Assembly (NCBI RefSeq): GCF_003234795.2
Contig: NZ_CP126268.1
Coordinates: forward strand, 1,364,001 to 1,428,000
Direction of reading: 5' to 3'
DNA length: 64,000 nt
Source: Curtobacterium sp. MCLR17_032
GTDB lineage: Bacteria > Actinomycetota > Actinomycetes > Actinomycetales > Microbacteriaceae
Notes under the pieces: model-generated
What the model was told of the DNA's origin: nothing
The model's database searches: none
The model's input: only the letters and a program-made list of their open reading frames with translations
Shown here: piece by piece, positions 11,531-59,220 of the stretch
Numbering within the stretch: position 1 is the stretch's first letter
How the letters are laid out: the number at the start of each line of letters is the position of its first letter
Program-made: the position numbers and the translations under genes

Positions 11531-11594
11531 AGACGCCGCCGAACGCTCGAGACGCCGCCGAAGTCCGCGGCGTCTCGGCCGTTCGGCGGCGTCT
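11531..11594. terminator. Nested inverted repeat, likely bidirectional terminator
   Basis: Outer arms AGACGCCGCCGAACG (11531-11545) and CGTTCGGCGGCGTCT (11580-11594) are perfect complements. They enclose inner arms GAGACGCCGC (11549-11558) and GCGGCGTCTC (11567-11576). All four arms share GACGCCGCC, so the structure can fold in more than one way. It lies between the end of the aldo/keto reductase and the convergent small gene at 11639. There is no T-run, which is normal for GC-rich actinobacterial terminators. Confidence 0.65.
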
Positions 11595-21317: not shown

Positions 21318-21354
21318 CTGGAGGCCCGGCACCCGATGGGTGCCGGGCCTCCAG
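21318..21354. terminator. Perfect 17-bp hairpin terminator
   Basis: Arms CTGGAGGCCCGGCACCC (21318-21334) and GGGTGCCGGGCCTCCAG (21338-21354) are perfectly complementary around a 3-base GAT loop. The hairpin stands between the convergent ADP-ribosylglycohydrolase and permease genes and can end transcription from both sides. No T-run is present. Confidence 0.8.
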
Positions 21355-44264: not shown

Positions 44265-44351
44265 GCCGTCACGCTACCGACGGCACCGCCCCCGGCACAG
44301 GGCTCAGACCGGCTCTGTGGAGAACCCGACAGGATCCACAGGCACTGTCCG

Positions 44352-45236
44352 TCACGCCCAGAACGCGGCGACCCGCTCCGCGACCTGCTCCGCCTGCGCC
44401 CGCCCGGCCTCAGCCGAGGGCCGCTGCGTCGACAGCGCCAGCGAGTTCGTCCCGAAGGCCCGGATCGACGCCTCGTCCGCGACCACGGCCTCCACCTGCG
44501 ACCCAGCGTCACGGAGCGCGGCGACGGACCGGTCCAGCCACGGCCCGAGCGGCGACGGGCCCTCCGGGCTGCACGCGATCACGAGGACCCGCTCGTACCC
44601 GGCGGCGACGTCCGCGTTGGTCGCCGACCGCACCCCGCCGTCGACGTACGGGTGTCCGTCGATGCGCACCGGCGACCAGACGATCGGCACCGAGCAGCTC
44701 GCGGCGACAGCGCGCTCCAGCGGCACGCTGTCCTCGGCGCGGAACACCCGGAAGGACCCGTCGACCGCGTCGACCGTGGTCACCGCGTAGGGCTTCGCCG
44801 GCCACTCTGCGCTCGGCAGCGTCTGTCGGAAGGTCGCGACACGCTCGTCGTCGCTCTGGCCGGCGGTGACCTCCTGCGCCGCAGCGCCGACCCGCGCGCG
44901 GGCGTCCTGCTCCGAGATTGCGCCCTGCATCGCGGCGCCGAAGCGCTGCTCGACTTCAGAGACGTCCACAGCGGCGGGCTCCTCGTACGTCGTCGGCAGG
45001 GGGCTCGTCTGCTGCGCGTAGGCGTCCTGCACGGCGCCGGCGCGCAGGAACGCCCCCACCACGCTGCCTGCACTCGTGCCGACCACCAGGTCAGCGGCTC
45101 CGAGGTCGACCCCGGCATCCTCGAGTGCGGACAAGACGCCGAGCTCCCAGGCGATGCCGGCGACCCCGCCGCCTCCGAGGACGATCGCGCGGGTTCCGGG
45201 CGTGGGAGTGGGCGTGGGCTCTGCAACATCGGTCAT
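44352..45236 (-). CDS. Patatin-like phospholipase
   Basis: A 294-residue patatin-fold lipase. The oxyanion motif GGGGVAGIAWELGVLSAL, the nucleophile elbow VVGTSAGSVVGAF (GxSxG) and the catalytic-dyad aspartate in YVDGGVRSATN are all present. It probably hydrolyses phospholipid or neutral lipid acyl chains in the cytoplasm or at the membrane. The ATG at 45236 is chosen since it leads straight into a short Pro/Thr linker and the oxyanion motif; the frame stays open for another 450 codons upstream, but that part is the non-coding repeat array and is not protein-like. Its promoter must lie in or before the repeats. Confidence 0.88.
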   Translation of the reverse strand: MTDVAEPTPTPTPGTRAIVLGGGGVAGIAWELGVLSALEDAGVDLGAADLVVGTSAGSVVGAFLRAGAVQDAYAQQTSPLPTTYEEPAAVDVSEVEQRFGAAMQGAISEQDARARVGAAAQEVTAGQSDDERVATFRQTLPSAEWPAKPYAVTTVDAVDGSFRVFRAEDSVPLERAVAASCSVPIVWSPVRIDGHPYVDGGVRSATNADVAAGYERVLVIACSPEGPSPLGPWLDRSVAALRDAGSQVEAVVADEASIRAFGTNSLALSTQRPSAEAGRAQAEQVAERVAAFWA

Positions 45237-45277
45237 GTGTCCTGCATACCAAGTCCGGCGATGAACGCGCACCACGC

Positions 45278-46086
45278 CGGGCCGGCGGACCCGGCCACGG
45301 GCCGGCCGGGAGGCGCTGATCGCCCCCCGCCCCGCGCCTCCCGTCCGCCGCTGGGTCGCGCACAACAGGAACCGGCTCGAGCCGCCGTTTCCCGCGGTTC
45401 GAGCCGGTTCCTGTTGTGCTGCGCCGAAGCGCGCCGCGCAGGCGCGCCGCGTCGGGTGGGCGGACCCGGCCACGGGCCGGTCGGGAGGCGTGGGTCGCGC
45501 CCGTCCGGCGCCTCCCGTCCGCCGGTGTGCCCCGCACAACGGCAACCGGCTCGCGCCGCGGTTTCCCGTGGTTCGAGCCGGTTCCTGTTGTGCTGCGCCG
45601 AAGCGCGCCGCGCAGGCGCCACGCGGGGTGGGCGGGCCCGGCCACGGGCCGGTCGGGAGGCACGGGTCGCCCCCGCCCCGCGCCTCCCGTCCGCCGGTGG
45701 GCCACGCACAACAGGAACCGGCTCGCGCCGCGGTTCCCCGCGGTTCGGGCCGGTTGCTGTTGTGCTGCGCCGAAGCGCGCCGCGCCAGGCGCCACGCGGG
45801 GTGGGCGGGCCCGGCCATGGGCCGGTCGGGAGGCACGGGTCGCCCCTGCCCCGCGCCTCCCGTCCGTTGCTGTTGCGCGGCGCCGAAGCGCGCCGCGCCG
45901 CGCACTACGTCGGGGCGCCGGACCCCGCCCGGAGCCGGACGGGAGGCGCGGATCGCCCCCGCCCCGCGCCTCCCGTCCGCCGGTGGGCCACGCACAACGG
46001 CGACCGGCTCGCGCCGCGGTTTCCCGCGGTTCGAGTCGGTCCCTGTTGTGCTGCGCCGACGCGCGCCGCGCCGCGCCAGCGCGCCC
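45278..46086. repeat. Array of about 173-bp hairpin-rich tandem repeats
   Basis: Five units lie head to tail between the patatin and quinone-oxidoreductase genes. The shared block GCGCCTCCCGTCC starts at 45334, 45508, 45680, 45853 and 45966, giving spacings of 174, 172, 173 and 113; the fourth unit lacks about 60 bases including most of its palindrome. Each full unit has, in order, a GCCCGGCCACGGGCC-like block, GGGAGGC...GCCTCCC inverted arms, a long palindrome starting GCACAAC and ending GTTGTGC, and a GCGCCGAAGCGCGCCGCGC stretch. Unit length is not a multiple of three and no frame keeps a common protein, so it is non-coding. Units differ by scattered point changes, so they are old duplications or independent insertions. 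There are no unique spacers between units, unlike CRISPR. Confidence 0.85.
45360..45419. repeat. Perfect 21-bp palindrome in the first 173-bp unit
   Basis: Positions 45360-45380 and 45399-45419 are perfectly complementary 21-base arms (starting GCACAACAGGAACC) around an 18-base loop. The corresponding palindromes in units 2 (45534-45593), 3 (45706-45764) and 5 (45991-46051) carry mismatches, and unit 4 has lost it. The mismatches are not compensated by changes in the other arm. Confidence 0.8.
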
Positions 46087-46090
46087 CCCG

Positions 46091-47119
46091 CTACTCGGCC
46101 GCGACGTCGATGAGCACCTTGCCGACCGCGTCGCCCTGCACGGCGTCGTGGGCGGCCGCGGTCTCCTCGAGCGGGAAGCGCAGCAGCGGCAGGCCCGCCT
46201 CCTCGCCGACCGGCAGGACACCGTCGCGCAGTGCGGCGGTGACGTCCTCGGCAGCGGCGGCCAGGGCAGCGTCGCCGATCGTGTAGAGCAGCAGGAACTG
46301 GTACCGGGCGTTGATGCTCATGTTCGGCCGGACCGGGATCGACGCCGCGTCGCCACCGTTGTCGGCGTACATCGAGACGACACCGTGGTTCGCCAGCACG
46401 GCCGCGTCCAGGTCGGCGTTCGCGGGGATCGACACCTCGACGACGATGTGCACGCCGTCCGGGGCGATCGCGCGGATCTGGTCGGCGGCGTCGTCCTCCC
46501 GGTAGTTGACGGTGTGGTGGGCACCGGCCGCGGTGGCGAGGGCTGCCTTGTCGTCGGAGCTGATCGTCGCGATGACGGTCGCGCCGGCCCACCGTGCCAA
46601 CTGGATGGCGGCGTGGCCGACGGCACCCGCGCCTCCCGCGACGAGGACGACGCGACCGGTCAGCGCGCCGGGGGAGAGACGGGCGGGACCGTCCTCGTGC
46701 ACGGTCAGGGCGCGGTGGGCGGTCATCGCGGGGACGCCGAGCGAGGCGCCGACGTCGAACGAGACGCCCTCGGGCAGCGGTGCGACGCGGGTGGCGGGGA
46801 CGACGGTGTACTCCTGCGCGGTGCCGGTCGGGCGGGAGGCCGCGGCCATGAACAGCCAGACGTGGTCGCCGACCGACAGCCCCTCGACCCCGGGGCCGAC
46901 CGCGTCGACGATGCCGGCGCCGTCCTGGTTCGGGGTGATCTCGGGGAACGGCAGGCCGTCGCCGTAGGTCCCGCCCTGCCGGGCCTTCCAGTCGGTGGGG
47001 TTCACGCCGGAGACGACCACGCGGACGCGGACCTCACCGTCGCCGGGCTCGGGGACCGGACGGTCGGCGAGGGAGAGGACGGCGGACGTTCCGGGCTGGG
47101 AGTAGACGATGGATCGCAT
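46091..47119 (-). CDS. Zinc-free quinone oxidoreductase-like alcohol dehydrogenase
   Basis: A 342-residue MDR-superfamily oxidoreductase. It opens with MRSIVYSQPGTSAVLSLADRPVPEPGDGEVRVRVVVSGVNPTDWK and contains QDGAGIVDAVGPGV and the cofactor motif VLVAGGAGAVGHAAIQLARWAGATVIATI. The C-terminal part ends with a MSINARYQFLLLYTIGD-type quinone-reductase segment. No zinc ligands typical of alcohol dehydrogenases are seen, so it belongs to the NADPH:quinone reductase (QOR) group. It is upstream of the repeat array and lies 49 bases downstream of the HxlR regulator gene on the same strand, so it is probably controlled by it. Confidence 0.85.
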   Translation of the reverse strand: MRSIVYSQPGTSAVLSLADRPVPEPGDGEVRVRVVVSGVNPTDWKARQGGTYGDGLPFPEITPNQDGAGIVDAVGPGVEGLSVGDHVWLFMAAASRPTGTAQEYTVVPATRVAPLPEGVSFDVGASLGVPAMTAHRALTVHEDGPARLSPGALTGRVVLVAGGAGAVGHAAIQLARWAGATVIATISSDDKAALATAAGAHHTVNYREDDAADQIRAIAPDGVHIVVEVSIPANADLDAAVLANHGVVSMYADNGGDAASIPVRPNMSINARYQFLLLYTIGDAALAAAAEDVTAALRDGVLPVGEEAGLPLLRFPLEETAAAHDAVQGDAVGKVLIDVAAE

Positions 47120-47168
47120 GTCTCCACGCAACCACCGGCGGGCGGTCGCGATTCCAGGAGGGACGGGT

Positions 47169-47534
47169 TCAGCCGCGCGCGTCGTACCCCGAGCGGGCCT
47201 CGGCGACGCCGTCCATGTGGTCGATCGCCCACTGTTCGAGCGGCACGAGGACCGTACGGAGCGACCGTCCGGTAGCGGTGAGTTCGTACTCCACGTGCGG
47301 AGGGATCTCGGGGAACACCGTCCGGGTGACCAGCCCGTCGCGTTCCAGGGCACGGAGGGTCTGCGTGAGCATCTTCTGCGACACGCCCTGTACCCGGGTG
47401 GCGATCGCCGAGTAGCGGCGGGGCCCGTCCGCCAGGGCGCCGATCGTCAGGACGCTCCAGCGGTCCCCGATCCGGTCGAGGAGCTGCCGGGAGGGGCAGT
47501 CCGCCGCGTAGGGGCTGTACTCGAGCGCAGTCAT
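47169..47534 (-). CDS. HxlR-family transcriptional regulator
   Basis: A 121-residue winged-helix regulator. It has the HxlR core CPSRQLLDRIGDRWSVLTIGALADGPRRYSAIATRVQGVSQKMLTQTLRALERDGLVTRTVFPEIPPHVEYELTATGRSL and a conserved cysteine (about residue 13) at the N-terminus. In YodB/HypR-type HxlR proteins such a cysteine senses quinones, aldehydes or disulfide stress, and their targets are often quinone and nitroreductases. The two flanking genes are an MDR quinone-oxidoreductase-like gene and a divergent NAD(P)-binding reductase gene, which fits this role. The ATG at 47534 begins the family N-terminus. Confidence 0.9.
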   Translation of the reverse strand: MTALEYSPYAADCPSRQLLDRIGDRWSVLTIGALADGPRRYSAIATRVQGVSQKMLTQTLRALERDGLVTRTVFPEIPPHVEYELTATGRSLRTVLVPLEQWAIDHMDGVAEARSGYDARG

Positions 47535-47596
47535 GGTGGCCTTCCGTGGGGCACGACCCGCGACGCGCCCGGGCGGGGCACGCACCACGAGGTGCC

Positions 47597-47615
47597 TACT
47601 TTCCGAAAGAGAGTA
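47597..47615. promoter_or_regulatory. Candidate HxlR operator
   Basis: TACTTTC (47597-47603) and GAGAGTA (47609-47615) are near-perfect inverted arms separated by CGAAA, giving a 19-base AT-richer island in GC-rich DNA. The related core CTTTCCGAAAG is itself palindromic. It lies between the divergent regulator and NAD(P)-binding reductase starts, where HxlR regulators usually bind. TACAGT at 47633-47638 follows at a suitable place for a -10 element. Confidence 0.5.
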
Positions 47616-47678
47616 ACACCCGTACAGTGAGTGACACGGCGCGTGACCGCGTCGGAACCGTCACACGAAGGAGCTCGC

Positions 47679-48326
47679 ATGTCCACCATCGTCGTCTTCG
47701 GAGGCACCGGCTACGCCGGCTCCGCCATCGTCCGTGAAGCCCTCTCCCGCGGCCACGAGGTCGTCGCCGTCGCGCGCGACACCTCCAAGCTCGACGCCGC
47801 CGAGCACCTCACGCTCGCCCAGGGCGACGCGTTCGACGCCGGCTTCGTGTCCGACGTGACCAAGGGCGCCGACGTCGTCATCGTGTCCCTGCACGCGGTC
47901 CAGTCCGACGGCAGCGAGCTCAAGGACAAGTTCCAGCACTTCGTCGACGCCGCCGAGGCTGCGGGTGCGCGTCTCGGCATCGTCGGTGGCGCCGGCTCGA
48001 TGCTCGTCGCCGAGGGCGGCCCGGCCCTGTACGACACCCCCGACTTCCCGGACGCCTTCAAGGGCGAGGCGAAGAGCCACGGCCAGATCCTCGAGGCCCT
48101 GCGCGCCGGCGACACCTCGGTCGACTGGTTCTACGTCAGCCCCGCCGCGGCCTTCGGTGGCTACAACCCGGGCGAGCGTCGCGGCACCTACCGCTCGTCG
48201 GACGACGTCCTGCTCGCCGATGCCGAGGGCAACTCGGACATCTCGGGTGCCGACTACGCGATCGCCGTCGTCGACGAGATCGAGCAGCCGAAGCACCACC
48301 AGGCGCGTTTCGGCGTGGCCTACTGA
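47679..48326 (+). CDS. NAD(P)-binding Rossmann-fold reductase
   Basis: A 215-residue NAD(P)-dependent SDR of the atypical NmrA-like/YhfK type. It begins STIVVFGGTGYAGSAIVREALSRGHEVVAVARD (glycine-rich GGTGYAG) and contains DVVIVSLHAVQ, RLGIVGGAGSMLVAEGG, and DWFYVSPAAAFGGYNPGERRGTYRSSDDVLLAD with a later DYAIAVVDEIEQPKHHQARF. These are features of proteins that reduce or protect against electrophiles. It is divergent from an HxlR regulator and downstream of a candidate operator. AAGGAGCTCGC precedes the ATG at 47679. The gene ends before a 50-bp palindrome. Confidence 0.88.
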   Translation: MSTIVVFGGTGYAGSAIVREALSRGHEVVAVARDTSKLDAAEHLTLAQGDAFDAGFVSDVTKGADVVIVSLHAVQSDGSELKDKFQHFVDAAEAAGARLGIVGGAGSMLVAEGGPALYDTPDFPDAFKGEAKSHGQILEALRAGDTSVDWFYVSPAAAFGGYNPGERRGTYRSSDDVLLADAEGNSDISGADYAIAVVDEIEQPKHHQARFGVAY

Positions 48327-48349
48327 CCCGACCGGCTCGCGTCACCGCA

Positions 48350-48399
48350 TGACGGACGGGAGGCCCGTGACCAGCTGGTCACGGGCCTCCCGTCCGTCA
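48350..48399. terminator. 50-bp perfect palindrome between convergent genes
   Basis: Positions 48350-48399 form a perfect inverted repeat with 25-bp arms and no loop base at the centre (48374/48375). The arms contain GACGGACGGGAGGCCCGTGA and end at ACCAG. It lies between the convergent reductase and MFS genes and would make a very stable two-sided terminator. The GACGGGAGGC core is shared with the 173-bp repeat array and with several other intergenic spots in this window. Confidence 0.85.
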
Positions 48400-48401
48400 G
48401 G

Positions 48402-49727
48402 TCAGCGGTTGCCGACGATGGCCGGCAGGGGCAGGTGGTGGCGCATGCGCACCTCGAGGTGCAGGCCACCCCGCCGCGCCAGGACGAGCGCGGTGACCGC
48501 CGCGGCCGCGGCCGGGACGCCGCCGGCGACCATCATCCCGACGTGCGCCCCGAAGTGGTCGACGACCTGGCCCATCAGCGGACCGCCGATCGCCTGTCCG
48601 CCCAGGAGCACGAGGACGTAGAGCGACATCACCCGGCCGCGGATGGCGACGTTCGAGGACAGCTGCACCAGTGAGTTCGACGCCGTCTGGAAGAGCAGCT
48701 GGGACAACCCGACCACGACCAGCAGGACCGTGAACGGCGCGATCGTCGGGGTCGTCCCGGCGACCACGAGCAGGACCCCGGTCCAGAACACCCCGCCGAC
48801 GATCGTGCGCAGCCGCACCACTGCGCGCCGGGTGGAGAGGACCGCGCCGGTCAGTGCGCCGACGGCGACCGCGGAGTTGAACAGGCCGTACCCGCCTGCG
48901 CCGACGCCGTAGACCTTCGAGGCGAACGCGGAGAGCAGCACCGGCATCGTCAGAGCGAACACCGAGAAGAACGCCACCAGGATCACCGGCACGATGATCG
49001 TCGGCTTCGCGGCGGCGTAGCGGAGGCCCTCCATGAGCTGCCCCTTCGACCGCGGGGCCGGCGGCGTGCGGTGCAGTTCGGAGACGCGGAGGAACCCGAG
49101 CGTCACGACCACGGCGACACAGGCGATCGCGTTGATGCCGAACGACCACCCGGCGCCGACGGCGACGAGCAGGATGCCGGACAGTGCGGGGCCGATCATG
49201 CCGCCGAGCTGGAACACCGACGAGTTGACGCTGATCGCGTTCCGCAGGTGCTGGTGTCCGACGATCTCGGTGACGAACACCTGCCGCGCCGGGTTGTCGA
49301 TGACGGTGACCATGCCGACCAGGAACGCGATCACCCAGATGTGCCACGCTTGCACCACCCCGGCCAGGGTCAGCACCGCGAGCAGCAGCGAGAGCACCGC
49401 GAAGGCACCCTGCGTGATCATCATCAGCGCCCGCTTCGAGTAGCGGTCGACGAACACCCCGCCGAGCAGCCCGAACAGCAGCATCGGTGCGAACTGGCAC
49501 GCGACCGTGATGCCGACCTGTGCGACCGACCCGGTGAGCTGCAGCACGAGCCAGTCCTGGGCGATGCGCTGCATCCACCCGGCGGTCATCGCGACGAGGT
49601 TGGTGGCGGTGAACAGCCGGAAGTTCGGCACGGACAGGGCGATGAAGGACCGGCGCCACGGCGGGCGGACGGTGCTGATCGGGAGCGGCTCGGTGGGCGG
49701 GTGGATGGTCGTCGGTGACGATCGCAC
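48402..49727 (-). CDS. MFS-family exporter
   Basis: A 441-residue major facilitator transporter with about 12 membrane segments. The start RRSFIALSVPNFRLFTATNLVAMTAGWMQRIAQDWLVLQLTGSVAQVGITVACQFAPMLLFGLLGGVFVDRYSKRALMM is typical of the enterobactin exporter/EntS-like group. The signature between helices 2 and 3 is GGVFVDRYSKR. It probably exports a small molecule or drug. The GTG at 49727 is chosen since the sequence before it is Arg/Pro-rich; GGAG lies 11 bases upstream. A strong AGGAGG with ATG (49795) sits further up but in another frame, so the start is not certain. Divergent from a LysR gene. Confidence 0.8.
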   Translation of the reverse strand: MRSSPTTIHPPTEPLPISTVRPPWRRSFIALSVPNFRLFTATNLVAMTAGWMQRIAQDWLVLQLTGSVAQVGITVACQFAPMLLFGLLGGVFVDRYSKRALMMITQGAFAVLSLLLAVLTLAGVVQAWHIWVIAFLVGMVTVIDNPARQVFVTEIVGHQHLRNAISVNSSVFQLGGMIGPALSGILLVAVGAGWSFGINAIACVAVVVTLGFLRVSELHRTPPAPRSKGQLMEGLRYAAAKPTIIVPVILVAFFSVFALTMPVLLSAFASKVYGVGAGGYGLFNSAVAVGALTGAVLSTRRAVVRLRTIVGGVFWTGVLLVVAGTTPTIAPFTVLLVVVGLSQLLFQTASNSLVQLSSNVAIRGRVMSLYVLVLLGGQAIGGPLMGQVVDHFGAHVGMMVAGGVPAAAAAVTALVLARRGGLHLEVRMRHHLPLPAIVGNR

Positions 49728-58199: not shown

Positions 58200-59068
58200 C
58201 AGGCGGCCCCGCCGGCGATGCCGAGGACGGCCGCAGCCGACGTGTCGGCGGTGATCCGGGCCTCCCGGACGACGTCCTCCGGGCTCAGCGAGGCGAGCCG
58301 GTCGAGGAACAGCGGCTGGAAGGTACCGGGGCCACCGGCGTCGCGCGCCGCCAGCTCGGCGGCGATCGTGTGCACCGCCGTCGCAGCGACGGCCGCGTCC
58401 AGCGGACTGCCGGGGGAGACCGCCGCGAAGGCCGCCACGACCGCGCCGAGCGCGCACCCGCCGCCTGTGATCCGGGTGAGGAGCTCCGTACCGTTCGCGA
58501 CCCGTACCAGCCCGCTCGGCGCCACCAGCAGGTCGACCGGACCCGAGACGGCGACGGCCCCGACCGTGTCAGCCCGGACGGCCGCGACCGCGGCGTCGTG
58601 CGCGTCCTCCGTCCCGACGGTGCTGTCGACACCACGACCGCCCGCCGAGGCGCCGAGGACCGCGAGCACCTCCGACGCGTTCCCCCGGAGGACCGTGGGC
58701 CGGAGTGCGAGCAGGTCACGCGCCAGCGCGGTCCGGACCGGCAACGACCCCACTGCCACCGGATCGAGGACCCACGGCGTCCCCGCGACCACGGCGGCGG
58801 CCGCGGCCTCCAGCGAGGCGACGCGCGGCTCGGCGTGCGGGGTGCCGGTGTTGACGAGCAGCCCGTCCGCGACGCCGGCGAACGGCCCCGCCTCGGTCGG
58901 CACGTCGACCATCGCGGCCGACGCCCCCAGCGCGAGCAGCACGTTCGCGGTGACGTTCTGCACCACCGTGTTCGTGATGCACTGCACCAGCGGCGCCCGG
59001 GTGCGGACGGCCTCCAGCAGGTCGGCGGTTCGGTGGGCCCAGTCGATCGTGGGCGCAGCGTTCTCCAT
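58199..59068 (-). CDS. thiM: Hydroxyethylthiazole kinase ThiM
   Basis: A 289-residue thiazole kinase, first gene of the operon. It has [69 protein letters not shown], and [17 protein letters not shown], all characteristic of ThiM. It phosphorylates 4-methyl-5-(2-hydroxyethyl)thiazole, i.e. salvage. De novo genes thiC and thiG are not in the window. The ATG at 59068 is downstream of AAGGGAT, which is itself the last segment of a TPP riboswitch, so translation is directly controlled by thiamine pyrophosphate. The gene ends with a TGATG overlap with thiE. Confidence 0.93.
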
Positions 59069-59074
59069 GGACGA

Positions 59075-59152
59075 TCCCTTCGCGAGTACGAGCTCGAGCA
59101 GGTTCGACGGGTGTGATCTCAGCCGCTCGGATGCGGCACCCCGTGTCTCGGT
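59075..59152 (-). promoter_or_regulatory. TPP riboswitch (THI element)
   Basis: The minus-strand leader of thiM carries the conserved THI-box order: ACACGGGGTGCC, a variable stem, CTGAGATCACACCCGTCGAACCTG (split: CTGAGA and ACCCGTCGAACCTG), then CTCGTACTCGCGAAGGGA. The last block overlaps the Shine-Dalgarno of thiM about 6 bases from the ATG. TPP binding is therefore expected to hide the ribosome site, the usual mechanism in GC-rich bacteria. Confidence 0.92.
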
Positions 59153-59220
59153 CGACACCGTACACGCATCGGCACCGACGTCCAGGGGCTCCTGACGGAC
59201 GTTTGTGGAAGGGTGGACAC

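Follow-up and report, generated by a model that had tools for sequence, protein, structure and literature searches.

I-shaped terminators, stable GC-rich stem-loops without a U-tract, are described as predominant in mycobacteria and as lying within 50 bp of the stop codon (PMC12288462). Structured 3' ends lacking U have also been reported for Streptomyces clavuligerus, the report leaving open whether they are I-shaped terminators or the 3' ends of Rho-terminated transcripts (PMC8269248). In hairpin-cluster terminators, several hairpins after a stop codon are proposed to act jointly, "clustered" being given as less than 15 nt apart and the hairpins being short, with stems of 2–10 bp (PMC8355165). 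REPs of the GTAG and CGTC superfamilies are described as palindromic, extragenic and present in high copy number, mainly in gaps between convergent or same-direction genes (PMC3733652; the word Actinobacteria does not occur in its main text), and BIMEs as regularly spaced REPs in alternating orientation (PMC2817692).

A tandem array of hairpins in Curtobacterium sp. MCLR17_032 shares features with each of these systems. The window analysed, 64,000 nucleotides corresponding to bases 1364001–1428000 of the 3.71-Mb single-contig genome, contains about 4.7 units of ~173 bp that take up most of the gap between an oxidoreductase gene and a patatin gene and are read here in the direction of both flanking genes (Table 1). 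The sequence GCGCCTCCCGTCC starts at 45334, 45508, 45680, 45853 and 45966, with spacings of 174, 172, 173 and 113, which reproduces the original prediction made from the sequence alone. TRF reported one repeat at 45272–45866 (period 172, 3.4 copies, 89% matches) and another at 45753–45979 (period 113, 2.0 copies). Each full unit consists of a hairpin termed B, a second hairpin termed A, a piece of the patatin-proximal leader and a GC-rich linker; the two stem-loops per full unit expected earlier could be mapped, and folding gave the predicted 21 perfect outer pairs for B of unit 1. B is 60 nt long (two 28-nt arms and a 4-nt loop), and A, which is 40–41 nt in the array, ends in GACGGGAGGC/GCCTCCCGTC. 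By coordinates, A and B lie 14 nt apart within a unit, and successive units are about 58–60 nt apart. The 113-nt unit is a full unit from which 60 nt of B are missing, seen as an alignment gap, and five A and four B hairpins are left in the array.

The region 45272–46090 folds better than its shuffles (z = -10.6; 0 of 20 equally good). As RNA, the array hairpins reach -53.8 kcal/mol for the first B, -42.6 to -45.3 for the other B and -23.9 to -35.5 for A, and each of the nine outscores all 200 of its shuffles. The array had been judged to be neither protein coding nor CRISPR. Both readings were ruled out here as well, as a home-made codon-usage gene caller leaves 45237–46090 empty and unique spacers are absent. 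An Rfam 15 scan of the window gave nothing for the array above the gathering score; the sole match was a TPP riboswitch (RF00059, 58.4 bits) at 59057–59153 on the (-) strand. The array had also been placed exactly in the patatin promoter region, which is correct in that it occupies most of the gap before this gene, but it stops near 45272 and leaves the core leader free of repeat. This leader, a block of ~34 nt at the patatin ATG, appears by eye to be conserved in six relatives. The closest named relatives of the patatin are Curtobacterium records (93% for C. salicis).

Table 1. Features of the array and its surroundings (positions counted from the first base of the window; energies are those of the predicted fold)
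Feature	Position	Strand	Remarks
Patatin-like phospholipase gene	44352..45236	(-)	PF01734
Patatin leader / presumed promoter block, outside repeat	45237..45270	(-)	conservation by eye
Whole array	45272..46086	(-)	about 4.7 units of ~173 bp
A hairpin 1, on the patatin side	45305..45345	(-)	-26.2 kcal/mol
B hairpin 1 (60 nt; outer 21 pairs perfect)	45360..45419	(-)	-53.8 kcal/mol
A hairpin 2	45480..45519	(-)	-23.9 kcal/mol
B hairpin 2	45534..45593	(-)	-42.6 kcal/mol
A hairpin 3	45652..45691	(-)	-32.7 kcal/mol
B hairpin 3	45706..45765	(-)	-45.3 kcal/mol
A hairpin 4	45825..45864	(-)	-30.6 kcal/mol
B remnant, approximate, in 113-nt unit	45866..45878	(-)	alignment gap
A hairpin 5, exact family arms	45938..45977	(-)	-35.5 kcal/mol
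B hairpin 4, 39 nt past upstream gene stop	45992..46051	(-)	-43.1 kcal/mol
Zinc-type alcohol dehydrogenase / quinone oxidoreductase-like gene	46091..47119	(-)	PF00107, PF08240
Solitary perfect A, 23 pairs, 4-nt loop	48350..48399	(.)	between convergent genes, same family as array A; -53.8 kcal/mol

A and B belong to dispersed palindrome families that are close to restricted to Curtobacterium. Both hairpins recur genus-wide and are not private to this locus, a question for which a BLASTN comparison of one unit had been proposed at the outset. One unit used as query gave at least 82 matches in its own genome (from the best 40 of 353 candidates, with both strands and the array itself counted). A pattern for A, consisting of the 10-nt arms with 8–34 nt between them, was found in 156 copies in this genome and in 65 of 66 Curtobacterium genomes (11–197 copies each), and the reversed pattern, used as control, in none of them. 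In a family-wide draw of 299 genomes, of which the control matched one, the pattern was present in 6 of 7 Curtobacterium genomes vs 2 of 292 other Microbacteriaceae, the latter two having one copy each. A covariance model for B also matched 65 of the 66 genus genomes and, in a family draw of 150, 15 genomes, namely 3 of Curtobacterium and 12 of other genera; these 12 had at least 1–2 weak matches each, the best scoring 44.7 bits vs 85.8 in the own genome. Copy numbers of B are rough, since only the best-scored candidates (83 per genome in the genus, 36 in the family draw) were counted, on both strands. One genome placed in Curtobacterium, G002, matched neither A nor B. None of the titles listed in literature searches describes the two families; an earlier description is possible, since only titles of open-licence papers were judged.

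Comparison of copies shows that pairing is conserved in both stems, as a covariance analysis of the units had been proposed to reveal. The alignment of A comprised the 24 of 30 A loci that are 40 nt long, and that of B 19 of 31 copies, weaker or array-redundant ones being excluded. Covariation scores were 0.300 for A and 0.199 for B, vs 0.119 and 0.097 in shuffles, and slid controls gave at most 0.127 and 0.069, respectively. Alignment cells changed on both sides numbered 74 in A (33.6 in shuffles) and 28 in B (9.3), with 0 of 500 shuffles as good in either case. Ten of the 28 pairs of B had changed on both sides with pairing kept, and 13 pairs of A had changed on both sides, a measure that 12 of 500 shuffles equalled. 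The A and B stems are real and selected. The interpretation first offered, as a structured RNA, a nucleoid or recombination site or a mobile REP/BIME-like element, is supported in part, pairing being conserved and the elements dispersed and extragenic.

Within the A stem, inner and outer parts covary around a fixed 10-bp GACGGGAGGC, the invariance of which is by construction in that alignment. In 644 kb, this 10-mer has 76 intergenic copies, whereas 60 permuted motifs average 0.62 and reach 3 at most. An inverted partner arm with no more than 3 mismatches accompanies 69 of the 76, the other 7 being single. Inside genes there are 27 copies, without clear enrichment over the permuted motifs (mean 5.3, sd 7.4, max 46). 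GGGAGGC is the commonest arm 7-mer in a motif-free scan for strong hairpins (23 of 71; see below). A plain terminator would not need a fixed motif in mid-stem; common descent combined with short-range copying, or a factor that reads the motif, would explain it. Being the oddest fact about these hairpins, the motif hints at a putative reader factor. It might alternatively be the site of a putative DNA-binding protein, such as a nucleoid, topoisomerase or recombination factor, the palindrome acting as duplex or cruciform and its position after genes reflecting tolerance or relief of supercoils between convergent genes. The intergenic excess of the 10-mer, its inverted partners, its persistence amid a covarying stem and the frequency of GGGAGGC would all suit such a site. 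However, covariation on both sides of the motif points to formation of the hairpin, which a duplex binder would not require, and hairpins of unrelated sequence hold the same positions after stop codons; we regard this explanation as unlikely. In Neisseria, DNA-uptake signals occur as inverted pairs that double as terminators. A short genus-specific motif in inverted pairs after genes recalls that arrangement, but the lack of clear enrichment within genes and the small number of single intergenic copies make an uptake-type signal very improbable here.

Using gene positions from the home-made caller, the 30 A sites were assigned to convergent (14), tandem (14) and divergent (1) gaps and to the inside of an ORF call (1), and the 31 B copies, at 19 sites, to convergent (17) and tandem (14) gaps, with none divergent. 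Gaps of at least 50 bp in the 30 A loci and the window were 35 divergent, 27 convergent and 50 tandem. Since the exactness of the A arms in pattern searches and alignment is by construction, the unbiased evidence is the motif-free scan of 644 kb, which yielded 71 strong hairpins: 37 convergent, 30 tandem, 4 divergent and 0 in called genes (p = 8e-12 and 1e-7 for placement vs intergenic length). Both A arms are present in 21 of these 71, and B accounts for 16, a share inflated because the scanned stretches of the nearest relative (G012) were picked around B sites or predicted counterparts. The distance from the upstream stop to the start of A was at most 50 nt in 24 of 29 measurements at gene ends. 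B is found farther away, 28–246 nt from the stops in convergent gaps, with 19 of 22 values no greater than 109. Of the array hairpins, B4 alone comes within 50 nt of the stop of the upstream gene; the first A follows at 113 nt. Strong hairpins lack a U-tract: none of 104 flanks has 5 or more T in 8 positions, the mean being 1.25 vs 1.12 expected, and no terminator-like site was found in 44300–48500. U-tract (L-shaped) terminators at A and B sites were thus rejected.

Other palindromes were seen in the same searches. Between convergent genes of the window lie an A-like strong hairpin with CTGGAGGC in place of CGGGAGGC (21318–21354) and a long unrelated palindrome that also forms a strong hairpin (11531–11594). 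A third family, C (~60 nt, CGCAAC...GTTGCG), was noticed in the motif-free scan at about 16 places in the own genome; examples are G000:C1:3463277-3463342 and 1020252-1020322. It also occurs in G012, at L169:3013-3072, and all 6 pattern-matched copies are outside called genes.

A and B are like I-shaped terminators, as far as these are described in the sources above, in having a GC-rich stem, no U-tract and, mostly in the case of A, a position shortly past the stop, and differ in being recurrent sequence families, A with its fixed 10-bp stem motif. With hairpin clusters the array shares several hairpins after a stop codon and the close spacing of A and B within a unit; however, its stems reach 28 bp and its units are farther apart than the definition for short hairpins provides. 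As palindromes present in many extragenic copies, mainly in convergent and same-direction gaps, A and B also resemble REPs, and the runs of B-A-B-A with linkers resemble the palindrome clusters of BIMEs. Unlike BIMEs, the array is built of direct tandem units of two unlike palindromes, the orientation of which cannot be scored since each is nearly symmetric. Unlike REPs, neither carries an unpaired tag: in A, all 24 aligned copies pair GACG with CGTC inside the stem (by construction), and farther outward the next four pairs are open in only 2–5 copies and the two beyond them in 11 and 13 of the 24; in B there is no such tag, and the two outermost pairs are invariant in all 19 copies. The Y1/RAYT transposase domain (PF01797) was found in 0 of 10 Curtobacterium genomes, including the own genome, and in 5 of 14 control genomes. 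Strict membership in the REPs fails on two counts, as neither hairpin has an unpaired tag of the GTAG or CGTC type and a Y1 transposase did not turn up in the 10 genomes searched.

Spread of A and B as non-autonomous REP- or MITE-like elements, with clusters as BIME-like products, would be a looser form of the mobile REP/BIME-like element considered in the original prediction. It would account for the high copy number of these extragenic palindromes and for the occurrence of B in multiple copies, mostly 130–210 bp apart, at 6 of its 19 sites; CGTC-tagged REPs without a dedicated transposase have been reported (PMC3733652). Two further clusters of four B each are at G000:C1:74140-74717 and G000:C1:1773312-1773820, with two copies at each in G012. 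Comparison with this relative argues otherwise. Of 31 A sites examined, 18 have an orthologous gap in the G012 stretches compared, and 15 of the 18 keep an A of the same length; one more (L054) retains an A of other length and interior, and A is absent at two, including the solitary A at 48350. Conserved A hairpins differ by 6 compensated, 12 one-sided and 1 broken pair. Of 19 B sites tried, 17 have an orthologue, where B is kept at 14 and missing at 3. The three B-less sites, an absence that mobility might have explained, were aligned and consist of diverged, unrelated sequence with no clean empty site. In eight single-copy B orthologues, differences affect 22 of 448 positions in the stem and 9 of 32 in the loop, flanks being 68% identical in an ungapped comparison that understates similarity; 2 pairs have changed on both sides with pairing kept and 18 on one side. 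Nor was there a blastn match on plasmid or phage records at E 1e-5. Recent mobility is unsupported, since sites are mostly conserved between the species and no clean empty site was seen, and together with the lack of tag and Y1 transposase this makes a mobile origin quite improbable.

The array itself is a local tandem amplification of the neighbouring chromosomal hairpins B and A, as can be concluded from G012, which has two full units (two B) at the locus vs ~4.7 units (four B) here. Similarly, of the 17 B sites with an orthologue, six contain more than one B in the own genome; the number in G012 is lower at five of these and equal at one. Identity is 93.6% between the two units of G012 and at most 86.7% between either of them and a unit of the own genome, which indicates independent amplification or homogenisation of this pair. 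Units of the own genome are 80.5–92.0% alike, and the outermost is ~85% identical both to its neighbours and to the second unit of G012, so that only on the side of G012 can amplification clearly be called separate. Unequal exchange or replication slippage is the probable mechanism by which the number of units changed, and the 113-nt unit presumably lost most of its B by deletion. In more distant relatives the gap varies further. Three of eight genomes (G021, G037 and G041; loci L063, L064 and L066) have a GAF-domain gene (PF01590) between the oxidoreductase and patatin genes, divergent from patatin, with one A hairpin beside patatin in the divergent gap and, in G037, one B adjoining the oxidoreductase gene. 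The GAF-domain gene was not found in this gap in the own genome, G012, G036, G045 or G001, where the gap is short or repeat-filled: G001 has one A-like hairpin, G036 one B, one A and a further A arm, and G045 one A and several B-derived pieces.

These differences bear on whether the array as such does anything. Local slippage DNA, named at the outset as what the units might be reduced to, may fit the copy number, in which two close species differ, but not the hairpin parts. Neutral growth, in which the parts function elsewhere and the extra units are idle, is compatible with the explanation we prefer for the parts and is a serious possibility, if somewhat short of an even one. The two units of G012, the single A with no, one or few B in distant relatives, the differences of 8–20% between units and the one unit lacking B are what it would lead one to expect; every A and B hairpin of the array nevertheless beats all of its shuffles, and at least two units are kept in both close species.

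By analogy with the described systems, A and B are most likely 3'-end hairpins of a U-less, motif-locked, genus-specific type, which at this locus were amplified in tandem in a region that resembles an I-shaped or clustered-hairpin terminator region. We consider it probable, judging from sequence comparisons, that the array was amplified from the nearly Curtobacterium-restricted A and B families and that its hairpins are U-less, bidirectional 3'-end signals insulating patatin. In RNA, A and B would act as terminators of the I-shaped type and/or as barriers against 3'-5' exonucleases; they may be either I-shaped terminators or the 3' ends of Rho-terminated transcripts. Transcripts coming from the upstream oxidoreductase gene would be halted or trimmed at the array's five A and four B hairpins, which would shield the patatin promoter from read-through. 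Against termination speak the patatin-side A of G021, G037 and G041, whose divergent gap calls for no terminator, the greater distance of B from stop codons, with only B4 of the array close to one, and the absence of B at 3 of 17 and of A at 2 of 18 orthologous sites. A broader proposal, which we think rather unlikely as a whole, is that many Curtobacterium transcripts end at sequence-tagged hairpins, a putative factor reading the 10-bp GACGGGAGGC/GCCTCCCGTC, fixed within a stem that otherwise covaries freely, in place of the U-tract in termination or 3'-end protection. On this view an array would be a multi-hairpin terminator enlarged by amplification, and the number of its units would set how well the gene that follows is insulated.

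How transcripts end without U-tracts in very GC-rich Gram-positive bacteria is an unsettled question, for which Curtobacterium offers a natural test bed: a motif-locked hairpin present in 11–197 copies in 65 of 66 genomes and kept between species at 15 of 18 sites. The A and B families may also serve as genus markers, and the arrays are candidate variable-number markers for strain typing.
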